Shown piece by piece: positions 10,550-23,396 of a stretch of 46,071 bases of DNA. A program made the translations under genes and the position numbers. Position 1 is the stretch's first letter. Every line of letters begins with the position of its first letter. The notes beneath the pieces are model-generated. The model was not told where the DNA came from, searched no databases, and saw only the letters and a program-made list of their open reading frames with translations. The DNA is from a virus, in the IMG/VR virus record IMGVR_UViG_3300050821_017459, positions 1-46,071 of that record; one strand, written 5' to 3'.

Positions 10550-13500
10550 TTAAATGCTTATGTCTGCGGGACGGAGGAAACAACGGCACTGCACATGTAA
10601 GGGCGGAGAGCCAACGTCACCGTAATCGAGCGACATCGTTTTCGCGGCATCGCCTTCGCCTGCCGTAATTGATTCGCCGTTTTTGAAAAAGACATCATCA
10701 ATCGGAATCGTCGTGCCGTCCATCTTTAGGCAATAGGGGCAAACTGAATCCAATCCGCTCGTGAACCAACGGACAGTCTTGACGACTCCCGATTCCTTCC
10801 ATGCCTGCTTCAGTGCGCCATTTGTGGCCCTGAACGATTCCGTCTTCGCAACCATGCCGGCGCGGCTGTCGTCGCTCCACTGGTAGACCTGCTCGACGCG
10901 CTTCGTGATGTCGGCCAAGCTTTCGCCAGCCTGCAACCCGTCGTTGATGTGGCTCTCCAGCGCTTCAAGCGTCGTCTTGTTGTAGCTCTCGGACATCATC
11001 TGTACGGATTCATGGACCGAGGCTTTTAGAGCATCGCTATACGGCTTGTCACTCACTTCGCCGATCGCGGCCAACGCTTCGGCCGCCTGGTGTGCGGAAA
11101 GCGTCTCCATGATGGGGAGAATTGCGTTCGTGGTTATCGAAATCCAGTTGTCGAGATTGAACAGGTCAGAGGGATTGATGCCCTTCGTGATGGCCGCTTC
11201 GAGGTTGGCGAGCACCTCTTTCCGCTGTTCGGCGTTCAGCGCCTTCATCGTCTCGACGACGTCCTTCTCCGCCGCGTGCGTGAACTCGGCGAGGTCCTTC
11301 GCCGCGAGCTCGTCCTGCTCCTTCGTCGATTCGAACTTCTTGCTCGGCGCGTTGAGCTTCTCCTTGAGGTCGGCGGTGATCTTGTCCGCCAAGGACTTCG
11401 CCTGCGTGGAACGGTTCTTTGCGATGCGCTGGAACTTGGTCCGTGAAGGCCGGTAACCGACTCTCAAACCGTTAGCGGCTTTCGTTCGGTTCGCGGTGAT
11501 GGTCTTATGGACAGTCTTGGAATTGGGGTCATCTTCCGGCTGGGCCTGCGTGTCAGAAGGCTTCTGTGCCTGCCCGACCGGCGCCATCGCGGTCGGGGAC
11601 ATGAGCACGTCGCCGCCGTCCACCGGCCCCGCTCCCATGAACTGCTCGCGCGCCTCGTTCACCGTGAGGATTGGCTGGCCGCCGACCGACGTCATCATCT
11701 CGGTATTGCGCGCGGCCTTGTCCTCCGGAACAGGGTCAATGAAGCTCACGTACAGGTTGTCGCCGTAGCGCCCTGTGAGGCGGTCGTTCAGGGTGCCGCA
11801 GATGGCGATCATGTGCGGCTTGATGACGCGCTTGGAGAAGACGTAGTCCGCTGTCTCCGCGGTGTTGCCTTGAAGGGCAATCTTGCCGTTGCGCCGCGTG
11901 ACGAAAAGGCCAGTGGTGGTCTTGAAGCACCAGACATTGCCGTCATAGTCCACCTCGGTCCGCATATCCCGGTGCTGCCAGTCGAGCTGTTGTTCGGTGC
12001 TGCCGAAGTCGAACATGACGCGGTAACAGGTATTGCGATTGCCATTCGCTTCGTAATGAATGTCTGCGTGGGACTGGATGCCGAGAGAGAAAGCAAGGCG
12101 CTGAACATCGTCCGCAAGCTGGTGCGAGGTCGTCGAATAGTATCCGCATTGGCGATTCTCGCGCGGGTCGATACTGCCGTCACCCACCATCAAAGCGTCG
12201 AAGAGAATCCTACGCTGCCGCATATCGAGGCCGAACACCCATGCCGGAAGGTGCTTGTCGTTCGCATAGCTCCCGATGTTGTCGTGCATCCAGAAAATAA
12301 GGGGTGCGCCGTAGACGTTGAAGCGCGTGCCGCCTTCCTCCTTGTCCGGGTAGGAACCGAAATTGAGGCAACCGCTTTTCTTCAGCCGCTTCAAGCAGGC
12401 CAGAATCTTCTTCGTGTGAGGCTGTTTTTTCTGGTAGAGCGTGATGATGCGATTTGAGCCTGACGATACGCCGCCCTCCGAAATGACGTAGCCGAGGAAT
12501 TCAAGCCAGTCGTTCATCATGAAGTTGCGGGATTTGTTCTCAGGATGACTGCCTTTCTGGTAATAAGGAATGCTGAATATCTGCGGGGACTCCCCACCGT
12601 TTTGCGGAGCGGCGGCCTTGAAGTAACACATCTTCGGCAAGTCTTCGGCAAAGCCGATGCGGTAGTTCGCGCCTTTATGGTCTGGCCGATACCACATGCG
12701 ATGGTCGGGCGTGACCATGATGTCCATCTTGCAGTTCTCGAAGTGGAGCATCTTGCCCTTGTAGGGGTAGACGTACTTGCCGAGTGGCAATGCGAAGCGA
12801 ACCTCGTTCGTGACACCGTCATATTCGGCAATGGCCTCACCGTCCATGACCTCGTAATATTTTTTCCAACCGCCCTGCGTGAGCACTTCGGTCTGATCGT
12901 CATAGCAGGCGCGGTTCGTGTCTGATTCCGCCGTGCCCAAGATTGTCTTGCTCGCGCCGAACATCGAAAGGATGCGGTCCTTCATTTCGAGCGACATCTT
13001 GCCGAAGTCCATGTCCTTCGGCGTTGCGCCGTTGGCAGACCACTTCACGCCTTTCGGCAAAACGCCGATGCGGTTCATGTTGTCGATTCCGCCGTGCATG
13101 TCGGCAAAGCCCACCTTCAGCGCCTCAAGCTGCGACTCCGCGACGAAATCGCTTTCAAGGAATCCTGCCGGCCGTGCTCCGTTCCTAAAGAAATTGCTGT
13201 TGAACCTCGTCGCATCATTGTCGTTGTCAATGTACGCCGCGCCTGCCATGACAGGGCTGTAGCCCTCGAAGAAGTTGCTGGGATTCGGCCCACGGAAGTG
13301 GACGATCTCGTAGGGCTTGAATGCCATCTCAACAGTTTCGAGCTTCATCTTGTAGCCGATGAGCTGGTACGGCCACGAACGGCGGTCGATCACCGGGCGC
13401 ACGCGGTCCGGCGGCATGAGATGGATGCCCTTCGGCTGGTCGGTGTCACTGTTCACGCCTTCGAGCCACCAGTACGTATTCCCGGTCAGATCCAAACATG

Positions 13501-13939
13501 CCGAAGTGAGGTACTTCAGCTCAAGGCCGTTCATGTTGTCGTTCGGGCTGTCAAGCAGATTAAGAAGCTCGTGGTCGCTCTCTTCCTTGGTGTCCTCGCC
13601 ATCAGCCGAGAAAAGCCGCCAGTCGATTGTCATGACCTCGCGGGCTTTGGCGTTCACGGCCGCGTAGACGAAGCCCTTGAAGTTCTCCAAAGCCCTCGAA
13701 GGGTCAACGGGGATGCCGGCGCCCGGCCGCTCGATCACGAACTGGTTGCTGCCGTTAATCTCGCCGAACTGCGAAACTCCTGCCTTGTTCTTGACGCGCT
13801 TCACGATGCCGTACTGCGTCATGACAATGCCGCCCTGTTCCTGTTCGTAGATCTCCGGGTCTATGCGCGAAGCAATCCCGCGCATGAGGCGGGGGAACCA
13901 ACTCGGCTTGTTCTGTGCGTTGAGGGAAGGGGATGGCAT
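10550..13939 (-). CDS. Portal protein fused to MuF-like head morphogenesis domain, interrupted by an intein
   Basis: The portal part spans residues 1-344 and 693 to about 830 (VYAAVNAKAREVMTIDWRLF, YEIVHFRGPNPSNFFEGYSP, MSLEMKDRILSMFGASKTIL, then TAETADYVFSKRVIKPHM). An intein of 348 residues occupies 345-692. After a charged linker, residues about 980-1129 form a Mu protein F-like domain (DITKRVEQVYQWSDDSRAG, DSVCPYCLKMDG, SPPLHVQCRC). The spliced product would be 781 residues: a dodecameric portal carrying a minor head protein as a C-terminal fusion. The intein interrupts the conserved segment TNRA/TAET. The start is in a Shine-Dalgarno-poor context. Confidence 0.85.
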   Translation of the reverse strand: MPSPSLNAQNKPSWFPRLMRGIASRIDPEIYEQEQGGIVMTQYGIVKRVKNKAGVSQFGEINGSNQFVIERPGAGIPVDPSRALENFKGFVYAAVNAKAREVMTIDWRLFSADGEDTKEESDHELLNLLDSPNDNMNGLELKYLTSACLDLTGNTYWWLEGVNSDTDQPKGIHLMPPDRVRPVIDRRSWPYQLIGYKMKLETVEMAFKPYEIVHFRGPNPSNFFEGYSPVMAGAAYIDNDNDATRFNSNFFRNGARPAGFLESDFVAESQLEALKVGFADMHGGIDNMNRIGVLPKGVKWSANGATPKDMDFGKMSLEMKDRILSMFGASKTILGTAESDTNRACYDDQTEVLTQGGWKKYYEVMDGEAIAEYDGVTNEVRFALPLGKYVYPYKGKMLHFENCKMDIMVTPDHRMWYRPDHKGANYRIGFAEDLPKMCYFKAAAPQNGGESPQIFSIPYYQKGSHPENKSRNFMMNDWLEFLGYVISEGGVSSGSNRIITLYQKKQPHTKKILACLKRLKKSGCLNFGSYPDKEEGGTRFNVYGAPLIFWMHDNIGSYANDKHLPAWVFGLDMRQRRILFDALMVGDGSIDPRENRQCGYYSTTSHQLADDVQRLAFSLGIQSHADIHYEANGNRNTCYRVMFDFGSTEQQLDWQHRDMRTEVDYDGNVWCFKTTTGLFVTRRNGKIALQGNTAETADYVFSKRVIKPHMIAICGTLNDRLTGRYGDNLYVSFIDPVPEDKAARNTEMMTSVGGQPILTVNEAREQFMGAGPVDGGDVLMSPTAMAPVGQAQKPSDTQAQPEDDPNSKTVHKTITANRTKAANGLRVGYRPSRTKFQRIAKNRSTQAKSLADKITADLKEKLNAPSKKFESTKEQDELAAKDLAEFTHAAEKDVVETMKALNAEQRKEVLANLEAAITKGINPSDLFNLDNWISITTNAILPIMETLSAHQAAEALAAIGEVSDKPYSDALKASVHESVQMMSESYNKTTLEALESHINDGLQAGESLADITKRVEQVYQWSDDSRAGMVAKTESFRATNGALKQAWKESGVVKTVRWFTSGLDSVCPYCLKMDGTTIPIDDVFFKNGESITAGEGDAAKTMSLDYGDVGSPPLHVQCRCFLRPADISI
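11864..12907 (-). mobile_element. Intein with LAGLIDADG homing endonuclease in the portal gene
   Basis: The intein begins at Cys345 (CYDDQTEVLTQGGWKKYYEV, block A) and has a block-B TPDH at MDIMVTPDHRMWY. It carries two LAGLIDADG-type helices (WLEFLGYVISEGGV and RRILFDALMVGDGSI) and ends VWCFKTTTGLFV...KIALQGN at Asn692, with Thr693 as the first extein residue. The usual penultimate His is replaced by Gly (GN/T), a known but less common variation. Length is 348 residues, typical for a full intein with endonuclease. The endonuclease looks intact. Confidence 0.88.
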
Positions 13940-16397: not shown

Positions 16398-18872
16398 TCA
16401 CGCCTCAATCCAGTGAATCTTCGGCAGGTCCAAGCCCTGCTCCACAAGGCCCTGAATGAGCCACACCAGTGCGTCACAATTGTGAACGAGGATGCCGTTA
16501 GCGAAGAACTCGTGTGCGTCCTCAACCAGGAGGTTGTAGACGGGGACGACATTTGGTCTTGCCGAATCCCTGTCGTCTCGCGTGTTCACGATGCCATTCT
16601 CTTCCGGCTGGAGATTTGTGCCATGCGGGAGCCGCTGCTTGCGCTGCCCTGATTGCACGGCGAGACATCCTGATTCGCTCTGGTTCCCGCATGTGGTCGG
16701 ACATGTGCACTCGCTCGTCCTTTGCATTGAGGTTGGACAAGTCGTTATTGAGCGAGTTGCCGTCTTTGTGGTGAACATCGGTAAACCTGTCGGTTGGACC
16801 GTGGTGGTCAATCCATAGTTGCCGATGAAGCGACATCGGCTTTGTTTGCGCCCCACCGTGATACCAGTAATAGACCCGATTAGCGCGGCGCTCCGATTGA
16901 GGATTGCGGTGATATACGTTTTCGTTGTAGATGACGTGCGTCGGAGGATGCCGCCAATCCACGTCCTCGTATCGAACTGCGATGTCATCCCACCTGCGCC
17001 GATGGGCTTTTCTGATGCTTGCCCCCAGCTTTCTGCGTGATGCTTCATTGAGCTGGTTTCCCTTAAATCGTTGGCCGAGGTTTCGGACGTTCTTGACTGC
17101 GCAACAATGGCGCGAGCAGTAGCGGTTATCAGTTGGGCGATCCGGGCGCGGATATCTCGTGAATGCCTTGCTACAGGTTTCACATTGGAAGCTGCGCATG
17201 CCCGGATACTTCCTCGGTTCCATGAGTACACCATATCGTTCTGCTCCAAAACGTCAAGCCGCTTTATCCCCAGCATAGTAATGACGGGATGATCCGGGGT
17301 TCCAGTCAATCCGAAGCGGGTAATCACCTCGCGTTCGCCTGTCTGCCCAGCCCAAAGGACGCGCTTATAGCCTTGGCGAGTCATGACAAAATCGCCCGCT
17401 AAAACGTCACGCAGATTTATCTCGCCGCGCTTGGTAAGAACTTTGGTATCGCCGGCCAGACAGAGGTCGTCGTGCGATTCAACGCCGAGGTTGAAGAGCT
17501 GGCCAAGGAGCTGTTCGCATCCGGCGCGGGGAAACATGACCGTGCCGTTCTTGATGTACGGCGCAACAACCTGAAGCCGTGAGCGCTTGTCCGTCGTCGG
17601 CTTCATCGGCACCACGGGAAGCATGGCGCGCTCCATCTCCTGCACGGCCGCCTTCTGGTAGCCGATGTCCTCCACGAAAAAGATGTTCGCACCGCCGCGC
17701 TCGCCGGGGATGCCGCGGACGTGCTTCATCGTCTCGTGAAAATTGACATGCTCGTTGTACGGATTCGCGCGGACGTAGATTTTCGGCGTGTCGTCCACGT
17801 AGTACACGTCGCCGGAAACGATGGCGGTATAGTCCGCGCTCTCCTTCTCGGATATCGCAAGGTCAACGCCGTGGCCCTTGAGCGATGCGAGGATCGGAAT
17901 CCTGACCTTCTCCCCCTTGTCGTTGGTCGTCTCGTTCATCGGCGGGATCTCGTCGTAGTAATGAATGTCCTCCGGCGTGATGATCTGGCCTTCCTCGGCC
18001 ACGATCTTGAGGAGCATCTCCCGCTGCCACGCAACCGGCCCCATGTCGCGTTCCTTGTCCTTGAGCGACTGCTCCGTGGGATACATCGCCGGCCATGTGC
18101 ACACGCCGTTCTTGTCGATCAGCGGGAATTCAAGGCATTTGAAGCCGGTGCCGGGCGCACGGAGCCTTGAAAGCAGCGCGTCCATGTGGAGCAGGTTGCC
18201 GATGACGACCAGCTTGCCCTTGCGCGCGTCCATGCCCGGCATGATTTCGGATTTCAACCAGCGGTCGGTCTTGTCGCGGTTTTCCTTCGTGCGTACCCAT
18301 TCGCCATCCTCCGGGTCGTCAACCACGATGAGCCGCGGTCGGTGCTGTAGATGGCGGAGGCCGCGCACCTTCTGGCCGCGAGATCGGGCGAGGATTCGGA
18401 CACCGTTCGATAAAACGATGTTCTGCTTCTGCCATTCCTCACCCTCGCCCTGGAGTTCGATGACGTTGCCCCGGATCTCACCGTAATCCTGCTTAATGAG
18501 GTCGTTGGTTTCGAGTTCGTGCTTGATCGAGCTGATGTTCAGCGTCGCTTGGCGGCTGGAATCTGCGACAAGGATTATGAAGGGATATCTTTCGGGATAT
18601 TCGAGGGCGGCCCACAGGGGAAGGGCAAGGCTGCCGAAGGTTGATTTGCCGGAACCCCGGAAGCCAAGTATTAGAACGCGCTTCTCGTCTTCGCGTTCGA
18701 GGGCGCGGAGCAATTCAGGGTGGAAAGTCGCGGGCGGATCGGTGAAATAGCCGGTGAGGTAAACCAGCGAAAAGCCAAGCAGGGACTTCCTGCTCTCCTT
18801 GCGCGCGTCGTAGCTTTCGAAAAGCGCGTCAATCTGCCTATGGACTTGTAGCTGGCTTGGCTGGTTCTCCAT
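16398..18872 (-). CDS. terL: Terminase large subunit interrupted by an intein
   Basis: The ATPase domain has Walker A GFRGSGKST (residues about 70-78) and Walker B LIVVDDPED (181-189). The RNase H-like nuclease has GVDLAISEKESADYTA (Asp337) and the conserved HDD (467-469). An intein occupies residues 471-798, splitting the nuclease motif HDDL/CDAL; the spliced protein would be 496 residues. The C-terminus KIHWIEA is also found as a remnant at 42368. It overlaps the small-subunit candidate gene by 35 nt. The frame stays open through a nested HNH gene read in another frame (see 16522-17223). Confidence 0.88.
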   Translation of the reverse strand: MENQPSQLQVHRQIDALFESYDARKESRKSLLGFSLVYLTGYFTDPPATFHPELLRALEREDEKRVLILGFRGSGKSTFGSLALPLWAALEYPERYPFIILVADSSRQATLNISSIKHELETNDLIKQDYGEIRGNVIELQGEGEEWQKQNIVLSNGVRILARSRGQKVRGLRHLQHRPRLIVVDDPEDGEWVRTKENRDKTDRWLKSEIMPGMDARKGKLVVIGNLLHMDALLSRLRAPGTGFKCLEFPLIDKNGVCTWPAMYPTEQSLKDKERDMGPVAWQREMLLKIVAEEGQIITPEDIHYYDEIPPMNETTNDKGEKVRIPILASLKGHGVDLAISEKESADYTAIVSGDVYYVDDTPKIYVRANPYNEHVNFHETMKHVRGIPGERGGANIFFVEDIGYQKAAVQEMERAMLPVVPMKPTTDKRSRLQVVAPYIKNGTVMFPRAGCEQLLGQLFNLGVESHDDLCLAGDTKVLTKRGEINLRDVLAGDFVMTRQGYKRVLWAGQTGEREVITRFGLTGTPDHPVITMLGIKRLDVLEQNDMVYSWNRGSIRACAASNVKPVARHSRDIRARIAQLITATARAIVAQSRTSETSANDLRETSSMKHHAESWGQASEKPIGAGGMTSQFDTRTWIGGILRRTSSTTKTYITAILNRSAALIGSITGITVGRKQSRCRFIGNYGLTTTVQPTGLPMFTTKTATRSITTCPTSMQRTSECTCPTTCGNQSESGCLAVQSGQRKQRLPHGTNLQPEENGIVNTRDDRDSARPNVVPVYNLLVEDAHEFFANGILVHNCDALVWLIQGLVEQGLDLPKIHWIEA
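16479..17462 (-). mobile_element. Intein in terL with an out-of-frame HNH gene inside
   Basis: The intein starts with Cys471 (CLAGDTKVLTKRGEINLRDV, block A), has block B TGTPDHPVITM, and ends VYNLLVEDAHEFF...GILVHN at Asn798 with Cys799 following, so all canonical splicing residues are present (Cys1, TxxH, HN/C). N-terminal splicing sequence is recognisable to about residue 550 and C-terminal sequence from about 774. Between them, about 225 codons are low-complexity Thr/Ser/Arg-rich filler, because the DNA there encodes an HNH endonuclease in another frame. Confidence 0.88.
16522..17223 (-). CDS. HNH homing endonuclease nested out of frame in the terL intein
   Basis: This 233-residue frame begins MEPRKYPGMRSFQCETCSKA, with Cys pairs (CETC and CSRHC) forming a zinc finger. 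It has a helix ASRRKLGASIRKAHRRRW like modular DNA-binding repeats of homing enzymes. The HNH core is SLHRQLWIDHHGPTDRF followed by DVHHKDGNSLNNDLSNL. The frame is shifted by 2 nt relative to the intein and ends inside intein block F. It may be translated from its own ATG at 17223, or reached by frameshifting. The family assignment is clear; the mode of expression is unknown. Confidence 0.8.
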   Translation of the reverse strand: MEPRKYPGMRSFQCETCSKAFTRYPRPDRPTDNRYCSRHCCAVKNVRNLGQRFKGNQLNEASRRKLGASIRKAHRRRWDDIAVRYEDVDWRHPPTHVIYNENVYHRNPQSERRANRVYYWYHGGAQTKPMSLHRQLWIDHHGPTDRFTDVHHKDGNSLNNDLSNLNAKDERVHMSDHMREPERIRMSRRAIRAAQAAAPAWHKSPAGREWHREHARRQGFGKTKCRPRLQPPG

Positions 18873-22074: not shown

Positions 22075-22584
22075 TTACAGTTTCCTCAACAGCTCCGCGA
22101 ACTCGCGCGACTGCTGCGCCTGTTTGCGGAACATCGCGGCGGTGTCCTCGTGGCCTTTAATCTGCTCCTCCAGTTCCTTCGCCTTCGCGCGGTTGGCATC
22201 TGCCATCTGTACGGCCTCTTTGCGCTCCTTTTCTGACTCGTATTTTTGCTGGCCGGTCATCTCGGATCGCTTGATGAACTTCTTTGGAGCATTGCAGGTG
22301 TGGCAAAGGGCGACTTGCCCAGTAGTGTCTACGGCAGTATGGCCAGAATTTTCCTCCTCATGCCCGTTGTCGCAAAGCCAAAATCCCTTCTCCTGCAACT
22401 CGTCCACGCGCTTGATGCTGGCATCGATCGCGTCCGCCTGGGCGATGTGGCTCTGCATTGCTCGGCGTTTCTCGTTGGCATGGTACTCTGATGCCGATGC
22501 GTTCAAGTCCTTCATAGCCGCGTCCTGCTCCTCGCGAAAACTGTAGGTCACTTTCGTCCATCGCTTCGCAATAAATCTCAGCAT
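22075..22584 (-). CDS. Coiled-coil protein with a central Cys/His cluster
   Basis: From ATG at 22584 the product is 169 residues. Two long charged helices (AAMKDLNASASEYHANEKRR and ANRAKAKELEEQIKGHEDTA) flank FWLCDNGHEEE...VALCHTCNAPKKF, which could bind one zinc. It overlaps the 3' end of the HNH gene by 7 nt. The leader ACAACATCAACTAACATG is of the CAA-rich, Shine-Dalgarno-less type. Function unknown. Confidence 0.5.
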   Translation of the reverse strand: MLRFIAKRWTKVTYSFREEQDAAMKDLNASASEYHANEKRRAMQSHIAQADAIDASIKRVDELQEKGFWLCDNGHEEENSGHTAVDTTGQVALCHTCNAPKKFIKRSEMTGQQKYESEKERKEAVQMADANRAKAKELEEQIKGHEDTAAMFRKQAQQSREFAELLRKL

Positions 22585-23396
22585 GTTAGTTGATGTTGTT
22601 TTTTGTATTGATGAATCTTGTGTCCATAGGTTGGCGTATCTCGATGACACTCATGACAGAGAGTTCTTCCGTTCTCTACCATAAACCTGAGGCGAGGAAA
22701 TAGCGAGAATGGGTAAATGTGATCTGCTTCGATGTTTCCACCTTTCTGACCACAGCCCAAACAGCGATAATCGTCTCTCTTGAATACAGCCTGTCGCCAA
22801 AGTTTGTACTCAATCGAATTCTTGATGGCTGCATTGACCGATGAGATGCCCCCCATCCAGAAGTGACTATTTGCGCCCCGGAAAGCCTTTGAGATGTTCA
22901 AGCGGTGCTCGATCGTCTTGGGCTTACCAAGCATCGCTAGCCGCCGTCGCATTCTGCCGGCCTCATCAACCGTTTGTCCCTTGTGGGCGATGCTCATGCG
23001 CAAGCGGAGTTCCGGCGTATATTCTACTGTCTTGCGATTGGGATTTCGGACATAAGGGCGGTGCTTCTTGCCCGTCATGGCCATTGATAATTTGAGCCTA
23101 TGTTCGGCTGAGAGGGGTGGAAGGGTCTTTCCTTTATTCCACGGAATTCTCCCCTTATGAGCTTCGCTCAATTTCCGGCGCATGGCCTCGCTGACGGGGC
23201 GGCCGAACATCCACGGCGTCGGCAAACCTCGATGTGCTTCACTCATCTTGCGCCGCATGGCTTCGGACCAATGTTTTCCCTTGAGCCACGAGGATCGACG
23301 GTGTGCGCTCTCGCTCATGCGCCGCAACGCTTCGGGAGAATAGATGCCCCTTTTTCCCTTGTTCCACGGAATGGCTTTGGCCGGAGCCGAAATCAT
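22578..23396 (-). CDS. HNH homing endonuclease with NUMOD3-type repeats
   Basis: The 272-residue product has several copies of the NUMOD3 DNA-binding motif: SPEALRRMSESAHRR, SEAMRRKMSEAHRG, SEAMRRKLSEAHKG, SAEHRLKLSMAMTGK and TPELRLRMSIAHKG. The HNH core follows near the C-terminus (CLGCGQKGGNIEADHIYPFS, then NGRTLCHECHRDT). This is the layout of free-standing homing endonucleases found in phages. It overlaps the upstream gene by 4 nt (ATGA) and the downstream one by 7 nt, so it is embedded in the operon. Confidence 0.85.
   Translation of the reverse strand: MISAPAKAIPWNKGKRGIYSPEALRRMSESAHRRSSWLKGKHWSEAMRRKMSEAHRGLPTPWMFGRPVSEAMRRKLSEAHKGRIPWNKGKTLPPLSAEHRLKLSMAMTGKKHRPYVRNPNRKTVEYTPELRLRMSIAHKGQTVDEAGRMRRRLAMLGKPKTIEHRLNISKAFRGANSHFWMGGISSVNAAIKNSIEYKLWRQAVFKRDDYRCLGCGQKGGNIEADHIYPFSLFPRLRFMVENGRTLCHECHRDTPTYGHKIHQYKKQHQLTC

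Follow-up and report, generated by a model that had tools for sequence, protein, structure and literature searches.

How can the same stretch of DNA serve as part of an intein in a viral terminase and, in another reading frame, as a gene for a homing endonuclease, and is such an arrangement a coincidence, an error or a product of selection? The question is raised by the gene for the large terminase subunit (terL) in a metagenomic virus, IMG/VR record IMGVR_UViG_3300050821_017459, all 46,071 nucleotides of which were analysed (hereafter, the window). Our reading, to which we assign a probability of about 0.85, is that terL contains a mini-intein whose central loop houses a separate, overlapping gene for an HNH homing endonuclease, an independent gene that entered there in the -1 frame.

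Anatomy of the terL intein and of its nested gene

The terL ORF (16398-18872; minus strand, as for all window features given below) is a single stop-free open frame of 824 aa that comprises an N-extein, an intein and a C-extein. The N-extein (17463-18872), the ATPase/nuclease body of TerL, ends in ...ESHDDL and was recognized by the match of ORF aa 23-469 to the PHROG family of large terminase subunits (phrog_38, 3.7e-70). The intein (16479-17462; 328 aa, ORF aa 471-798) has the residues of a class 1 intein, namely, Cys1, the TxxH motif of block B (TPDH, 17289-17300), in which T55 and H58 are invariant (alignment A5), and the C-terminal HN at the end of block F/G (VEDAHEFFANGILVHN, 16479-16526), followed by Cys+1 (16476-16478), the first residue of the C-extein (CDALVWLIQ...). 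The C-extein, including the stop codon, occupies 16398-16478, as judged from the translation and from comparison with relatives. Both ends of the intein matched the respective profiles (TIGR01443, C-terminal, 1.3e-6; TIGR01445, N-terminal), and a match to Pfam Intein_splicing was obtained at 6.3e-6, which is under the curated cut-off of that family. In the AF2 models, both splicing halves adopt the HINT fold (pLDDT ~97), with the gp41-1 and DnaX mini-inteins as the top Foldseek matches (E 8e-6). A comparison of protein sequences further showed an uninterrupted SHDDL/xD site in 29 close terL relatives without the intein, as expected of a precise insertion. Both intein halves lie in one ORF in the window, and the locus is accordingly not a split intein or a fractured gene. 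The terL insert is most likely a class-1-type mini-intein, and is predicted to splice.

The HNH_3 endonuclease gene (16522-17223; 233 aa) is located inside this intein and is not in frame with it, as the endonuclease of a full-length intein would be: its codons begin 1 nt before those of the intein, a -1/+2 shift, and it has its own ATG and TGA. The predicted product matches HNH_3 (PF13392; 4e-7, over the curated cut-off) and phrog_15471 (6.2e-11), and has the HHx(n)N...H catalytic core (HHKDGNSLNN...H, 16705-16773), with H151, H152 and H173 invariant and N160 and N164 nearly invariant (alignment A6). It is predicted to fold (AF2 mean pLDDT 83), and its best PDB match is I-HmuI, albeit a weak one (E 0.06). 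The start codon (17221-17223) overlaps a Trp codon of the intein (tcATGGaac), and the stop codon (16522-16524) is formed by T|GA of a Val-Glu codon pair in intein block F. Over the HNH DNA, the intein frame encodes filler that is predicted to be disordered (AF2 pLDDT <50), and the third frame across the intein DNA is full of stops. The preliminary description of this locus had reported the complete splicing ends, the HNH gene shifted by 2 nt, the HNH stop within block F and a filler-like middle across which the intein frame reads through; all these observations, coordinates included, held up.

Recurrence of the arrangement and selection on the two frames

Related inteins were sought in viral and genome contigs with a profile of the 26-residue intein C-terminus, so that neither HNH nor an open frame was required for detection. 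This profile replaced an alignment of the diverse HNH proteins, which was too variable for scanning, and thereby removed any selection of loci on HNH or openness; a scan of viral contigs with HNH-only patterns had recovered no relatives, the patterns being too specific. Together with the loci from the search for terL relatives, these scans, with the best 80 matches kept per scan, yielded 163 distinct inteins, among which 88 had both intein halves and a sense-strand HNH_3-type match, in every case in the -1 frame. The intein frame is open, with both halves in one ORF, in 87 of these 88; the sole exception, L142, has both frames broken. HNH_3 was found in frame in none of the 163 distinct inteins surveyed, that is, no relative had the two frames fused. 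The same frame pair is present in L001 and L002, which come from independent assemblies and share 63-64% identity in terL, and the same HNH-in-intein layout is present in terL of two isolates, Tetrasphaera phage TJE1 and Acinetobacter phage Highwayman, where the loci are annotated merely as large terminase. Pfam scans of 80 N-exteins assigned the majority to terminase families. At least one host is not terL: in L033 (2521-4470), a viral contig, an HNH intein of the same class resides in a DegT/DnrJ/EryC1 aminotransferase.

For a metagenomic virus record such as the window, one might in principle suspect that indels introduced during sequencing or assembly had displaced an ordinary in-frame HNH domain. 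However, an identical frame relation recurs in dozens of independent assemblies; the ends of the splicing halves and of HNH are intact, and HNH has its own start and stop. Because the isolates TJE1 and Highwayman have the same layout, assembly error is excluded, and we give displacement by indels practically no weight, in line with the preliminary description, which had argued against sequencing errors.

The probability that the intein frame stays open was estimated with a codon model in which the HNH protein was held fixed and synonymous codons were resampled with the usage of the extein of each locus, under the assumption that codons are independent. For the window alone, this probability is 0.0097, and a value of about 1% is by itself not decisive; long spurious ORFs are also common in the window, and the open frame could accordingly be viewed as a chance by-product of codon usage that nothing selects for. 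Across the loci, however, the median probability is 0.0076, and 3.8 of the 84 inteins tested would be expected to be open, compared to 87 of 88 observed (the 85 of 85 open in the codon-model set presupposes that the intein halves share an ORF, whereas 87/88 is the unconditioned count). The open set includes AT-rich inteins, for which the probability is 1e-6 to 1e-7. Moreover, 1-12 stops interrupt the would-be intein frame in nine of the ten free-standing HNH relatives tested, the tenth (L011) having zero. Chance openness thus appears very improbable, and selection for an open intein frame, as claimed in the preliminary description, is borne out. For the opposite sense shift, the median probability of an open frame is 2e-8, so that avoiding stops would be about 10^5 times harder, and this would explain why HNH_3 is constantly found in the -1 frame.

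The preliminary description had also proposed comparing synonymous and nonsynonymous change in both frames. In pairwise comparisons of 20 unsaturated pairs, the median dN/dS is 0.20 for the HNH frame and 0.95 for the filler frame; purifying selection acts on the HNH frame but not on the intein-frame filler. Because the HNH wobble base coincides with the second codon position of the intein frame, we considered selection for a hydrophilic filler; this idea was rejected, as the hydropathy of the filler matches that obtained by synonymous resampling. HNH and splicing-domain similarities show just a partial correlation (Mantel r 0.46), indicating that the pairing of the two is not strictly stable. 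Given its recurrence in about 90 related inteins, the two-frame HNH/intein arrangement is real, selected and widespread, and is neither a fluke nor a sequencing error.

Origin, expression and role of the nested HNH gene

Neither the intein nor HNH is present in the large majority of close terL relatives, and the distribution of the element is patchy. Free-standing relatives of the HNH gene adjoin terL in L011, L027, Exiguobacterium EauM-23, Lactobacillus CL2, Pseudomonas PAE1 and FBPa53, Sphaerotilus SN1 and Brevundimonas Poludnitsa; in L011 (4380-5080) and L027 (4430-5053), the gene, of the same family, follows an intein-less terL. In L011, the 3' end of terL (QGLELPKIHWIEA) is duplicated after the HNH gene, as expected if the insertion restored the end of the gene. 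Mini-inteins without HNH occur as well, and the L062 intein (2135-2578) is close to a copy of the L061 intein (1646-2578) minus HNH, the difference being a 489-nt deletion that keeps the intein frame. In Vibrio phage 1.245.O (L227) and Brochothrix BL3 (L220), the two halves of the intein occupy different ORFs, between which lies HNH or an HNH remnant; these phages show that the intein frame is occasionally lost, and their terL inteins are candidates for natural split inteins. These forms suggest an order of stages in which a free-standing HNH gene beside terL becomes nested in the intein and is later deleted or split. The origin advanced in the preliminary description, a free-standing HNH gene that invaded a mini-intein, agrees well with the free-standing relatives beside terL, the HNH-less mini-inteins and the clean deletion in L062.

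We propose that an independent HNH gene entered the central loop of a terL mini-intein in the -1 frame. During translation of terL, the HNH DNA would then yield a disordered filler of ~200 residues that the intein tolerates, and the intein would excise itself, joining the terminase at SHDDL/CDAL. Translation of HNH would start internally, at the ATG that overlaps the intein Trp codon, to give a separate protein, which would probably cut intein-less terL alleles, so that intein and HNH are copied as one unit. Selection preserves the HNH residues in one frame, whereas the other is constrained only to stay free of stops.

With respect to expression, only a weak Shine-Dalgarno sequence precedes the HNH start in the window, at -2.8 kcal/mol, and strong ones are found in ~14% of loci compared to ~3% of controls, a modest enrichment. 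Given that a strong Shine-Dalgarno sequence is missing at many HNH starts and that the -1 relation holds throughout the HNH_3 family, HNH might instead be made as a fusion to the N-terminal intein half by -1 ribosomal frameshifting. However, -1 slippery heptamers are present close to the HNH start at 12 of the 85 loci, not above the 15% in random intein windows, and none was seen directly upstream of the HNH ATG in the window. The position and context of this ATG are conserved in L001, L002 and L157, which, with the strong Shine-Dalgarno sequences in some loci, speaks against frameshifting, to which we leave a small share of probability. Internal initiation is favoured by these sequence features.

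Two further alternatives concern the role of HNH. Some phage HNH proteins act in DNA packaging with terminase, and the free-standing relatives sit between terL and the portal gene, so the nested HNH might aid packaging instead of homing. The packaging role is unlikely in view of the intein-less, HNH-less state of most close terL relatives, the class member in the aminotransferase L033, the HNH-deleted variant L062 and the non-HNH endonucleases at the same position in other inteins. Alternatively, HNH could be a relic undergoing decay, in an intein that has ceased to home, as deletion variants such as L062 and the broken frames of L142 might suggest; in the window, however, the catalytic residues, start and stop are intact, and the low family dN/dS likewise makes decay quite improbable. 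We accordingly retain homing as the probable role of the nested HNH.

Other overlapping endonucleases and comparison with known systems

The survey also recovered overlaps with other nuclease families and in other frames. In 24 cyanobacterial inteins of ~377-453 aa (L158, L169, L175, L181, L182 and others among L188-L219), the open intein frame spans an ORF of 283-360 codons in the -1 frame, which matched LAGLIDADG_2 in all three cases scanned (E ~1e-19 to 1e-21); the median probability of an open frame under the codon model is 2e-8. Gorbalenya's work of 1998, taken up below, is said to treat a cyanobacterial DnaX intein. The +1 frame of an open intein is occupied by an HNH gene (PF01844) in L155 (1644-2516, plus strand) and by a DUF559 nuclease gene in L156 (1854-2519, plus strand). 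Antisense to an open intein are a DUF559/Vsr-like gene in L117 (1364-2215, minus strand) and two HNH-like genes in L089 (599-1234 and 1847-2572, minus strand), the second of which matches HNH_3 at 1.7e-8. In-frame controls are provided by DUF559 in L091 and LAGLIDADG_3 in L146, and the window contains an internal one: the portal/head-morphogenesis ORF (10550-13939, 1129 aa) has a conventional in-frame LAGLIDADG_3 intein (about aa 344-697) across which the other sense frames are closed. Elsewhere in the window, at 22578-23396, there is a free-standing NUMOD3 and HNH endonuclease gene.

On balance, we lean towards the view that out-of-frame overprinting is a general means, used time and again, by which inteins carry homing endonucleases. 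It would have arisen several times (HNH_3 in the sense -1 frame and antisense, LAGLIDADG_2 in -1, HNH PF01844 in +1, and DUF559/Vsr-like nucleases in +1 and antisense) and would uncouple endonuclease expression from the spliced precursor, with -1 dominating as the sense frame most easily kept stop-free. The departure from the in-frame norm noted in the preliminary description is genuine, although the locus is not unique and belongs to a widespread class with analogues in other nuclease families and frames. Its notion of a homing element within a homing element fared less well: since a mini-intein lacking an endonuclease cannot move on its own, HNH is more aptly regarded as the gene that gives this intein its mobility, encoded in another frame.

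Out-of-frame HNH genes have been described in phage DNA methylases, namely, the ShiLan domain and the Pacc40 gp60 insertion (Arsenault et al., Genes 2025, PMC11855218). These resemble the present case in that the insertion, with its out-of-frame HNH, introduces no stop codon into the host gene and has a patchy, homing-like distribution, but they lack intein splicing motifs and are presumed to be retained in the protein (PMC11855218), whereas here the insertion is a recognizable intein with complete motifs and the host is terL. For overlapping frames in actinobacteriophages, the same paper cites Gosselin et al. 2025 (bioRxiv) and Gorbalenya 1998 ('Non-canonical inteins', NAR 26:1741); as far as this citation indicates, the two works probably overlap with ours, and out-of-frame intein endonucleases may already be described there. 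Our literature search for out-of-frame intein endonucleases found nothing beyond the ShiLan paper (PMC11855218) and these two works.

The present survey indicates that ~90 HNH inteins, and 24 cyanobacterial inteins with a long ORF that is LAGLIDADG_2 in the cases scanned, use an overlapping gene in place of an endonuclease within the polypeptide, which accounts for a group of inteins with a junk-looking middle. Together they make up a natural collection of long overlaps on the same strand, with an enzyme in one frame and mere openness in the other, and hence a clean test bed for the evolution of overlapping genes; the capture route, from a free-standing HNH gene beside terL to its nesting and eventual deletion or splitting, becomes directly testable.

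As in fractured genes and natural split inteins, an independent endonuclease gene lies between intein halves (in Vibrio phage 1.245.O, a relative of the window HNH), but the window intein is one continuous open frame. In the textbook intein, e.g., PI-SceI, the endonuclease is a domain of the same polypeptide. The terL intein is like such full-length inteins, including the portal LAGLIDADG_3 intein of the same phage, in that its N- and C-terminal splicing blocks flank an endonuclease, and unlike them in that this endonuclease is a separate overlapping gene and not a domain of the intein polypeptide. Group I introns can hold nested HNH genes of the free-standing type (I-HmuI; collaborative homing). 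There, too, an independent endonuclease gene resides in a self-removing element, and I-HmuI is the top, if weak, structural match of the window HNH; in the terL intein, by contrast, removal would take place at the protein level, and the nested gene must therefore be read through in a second frame.
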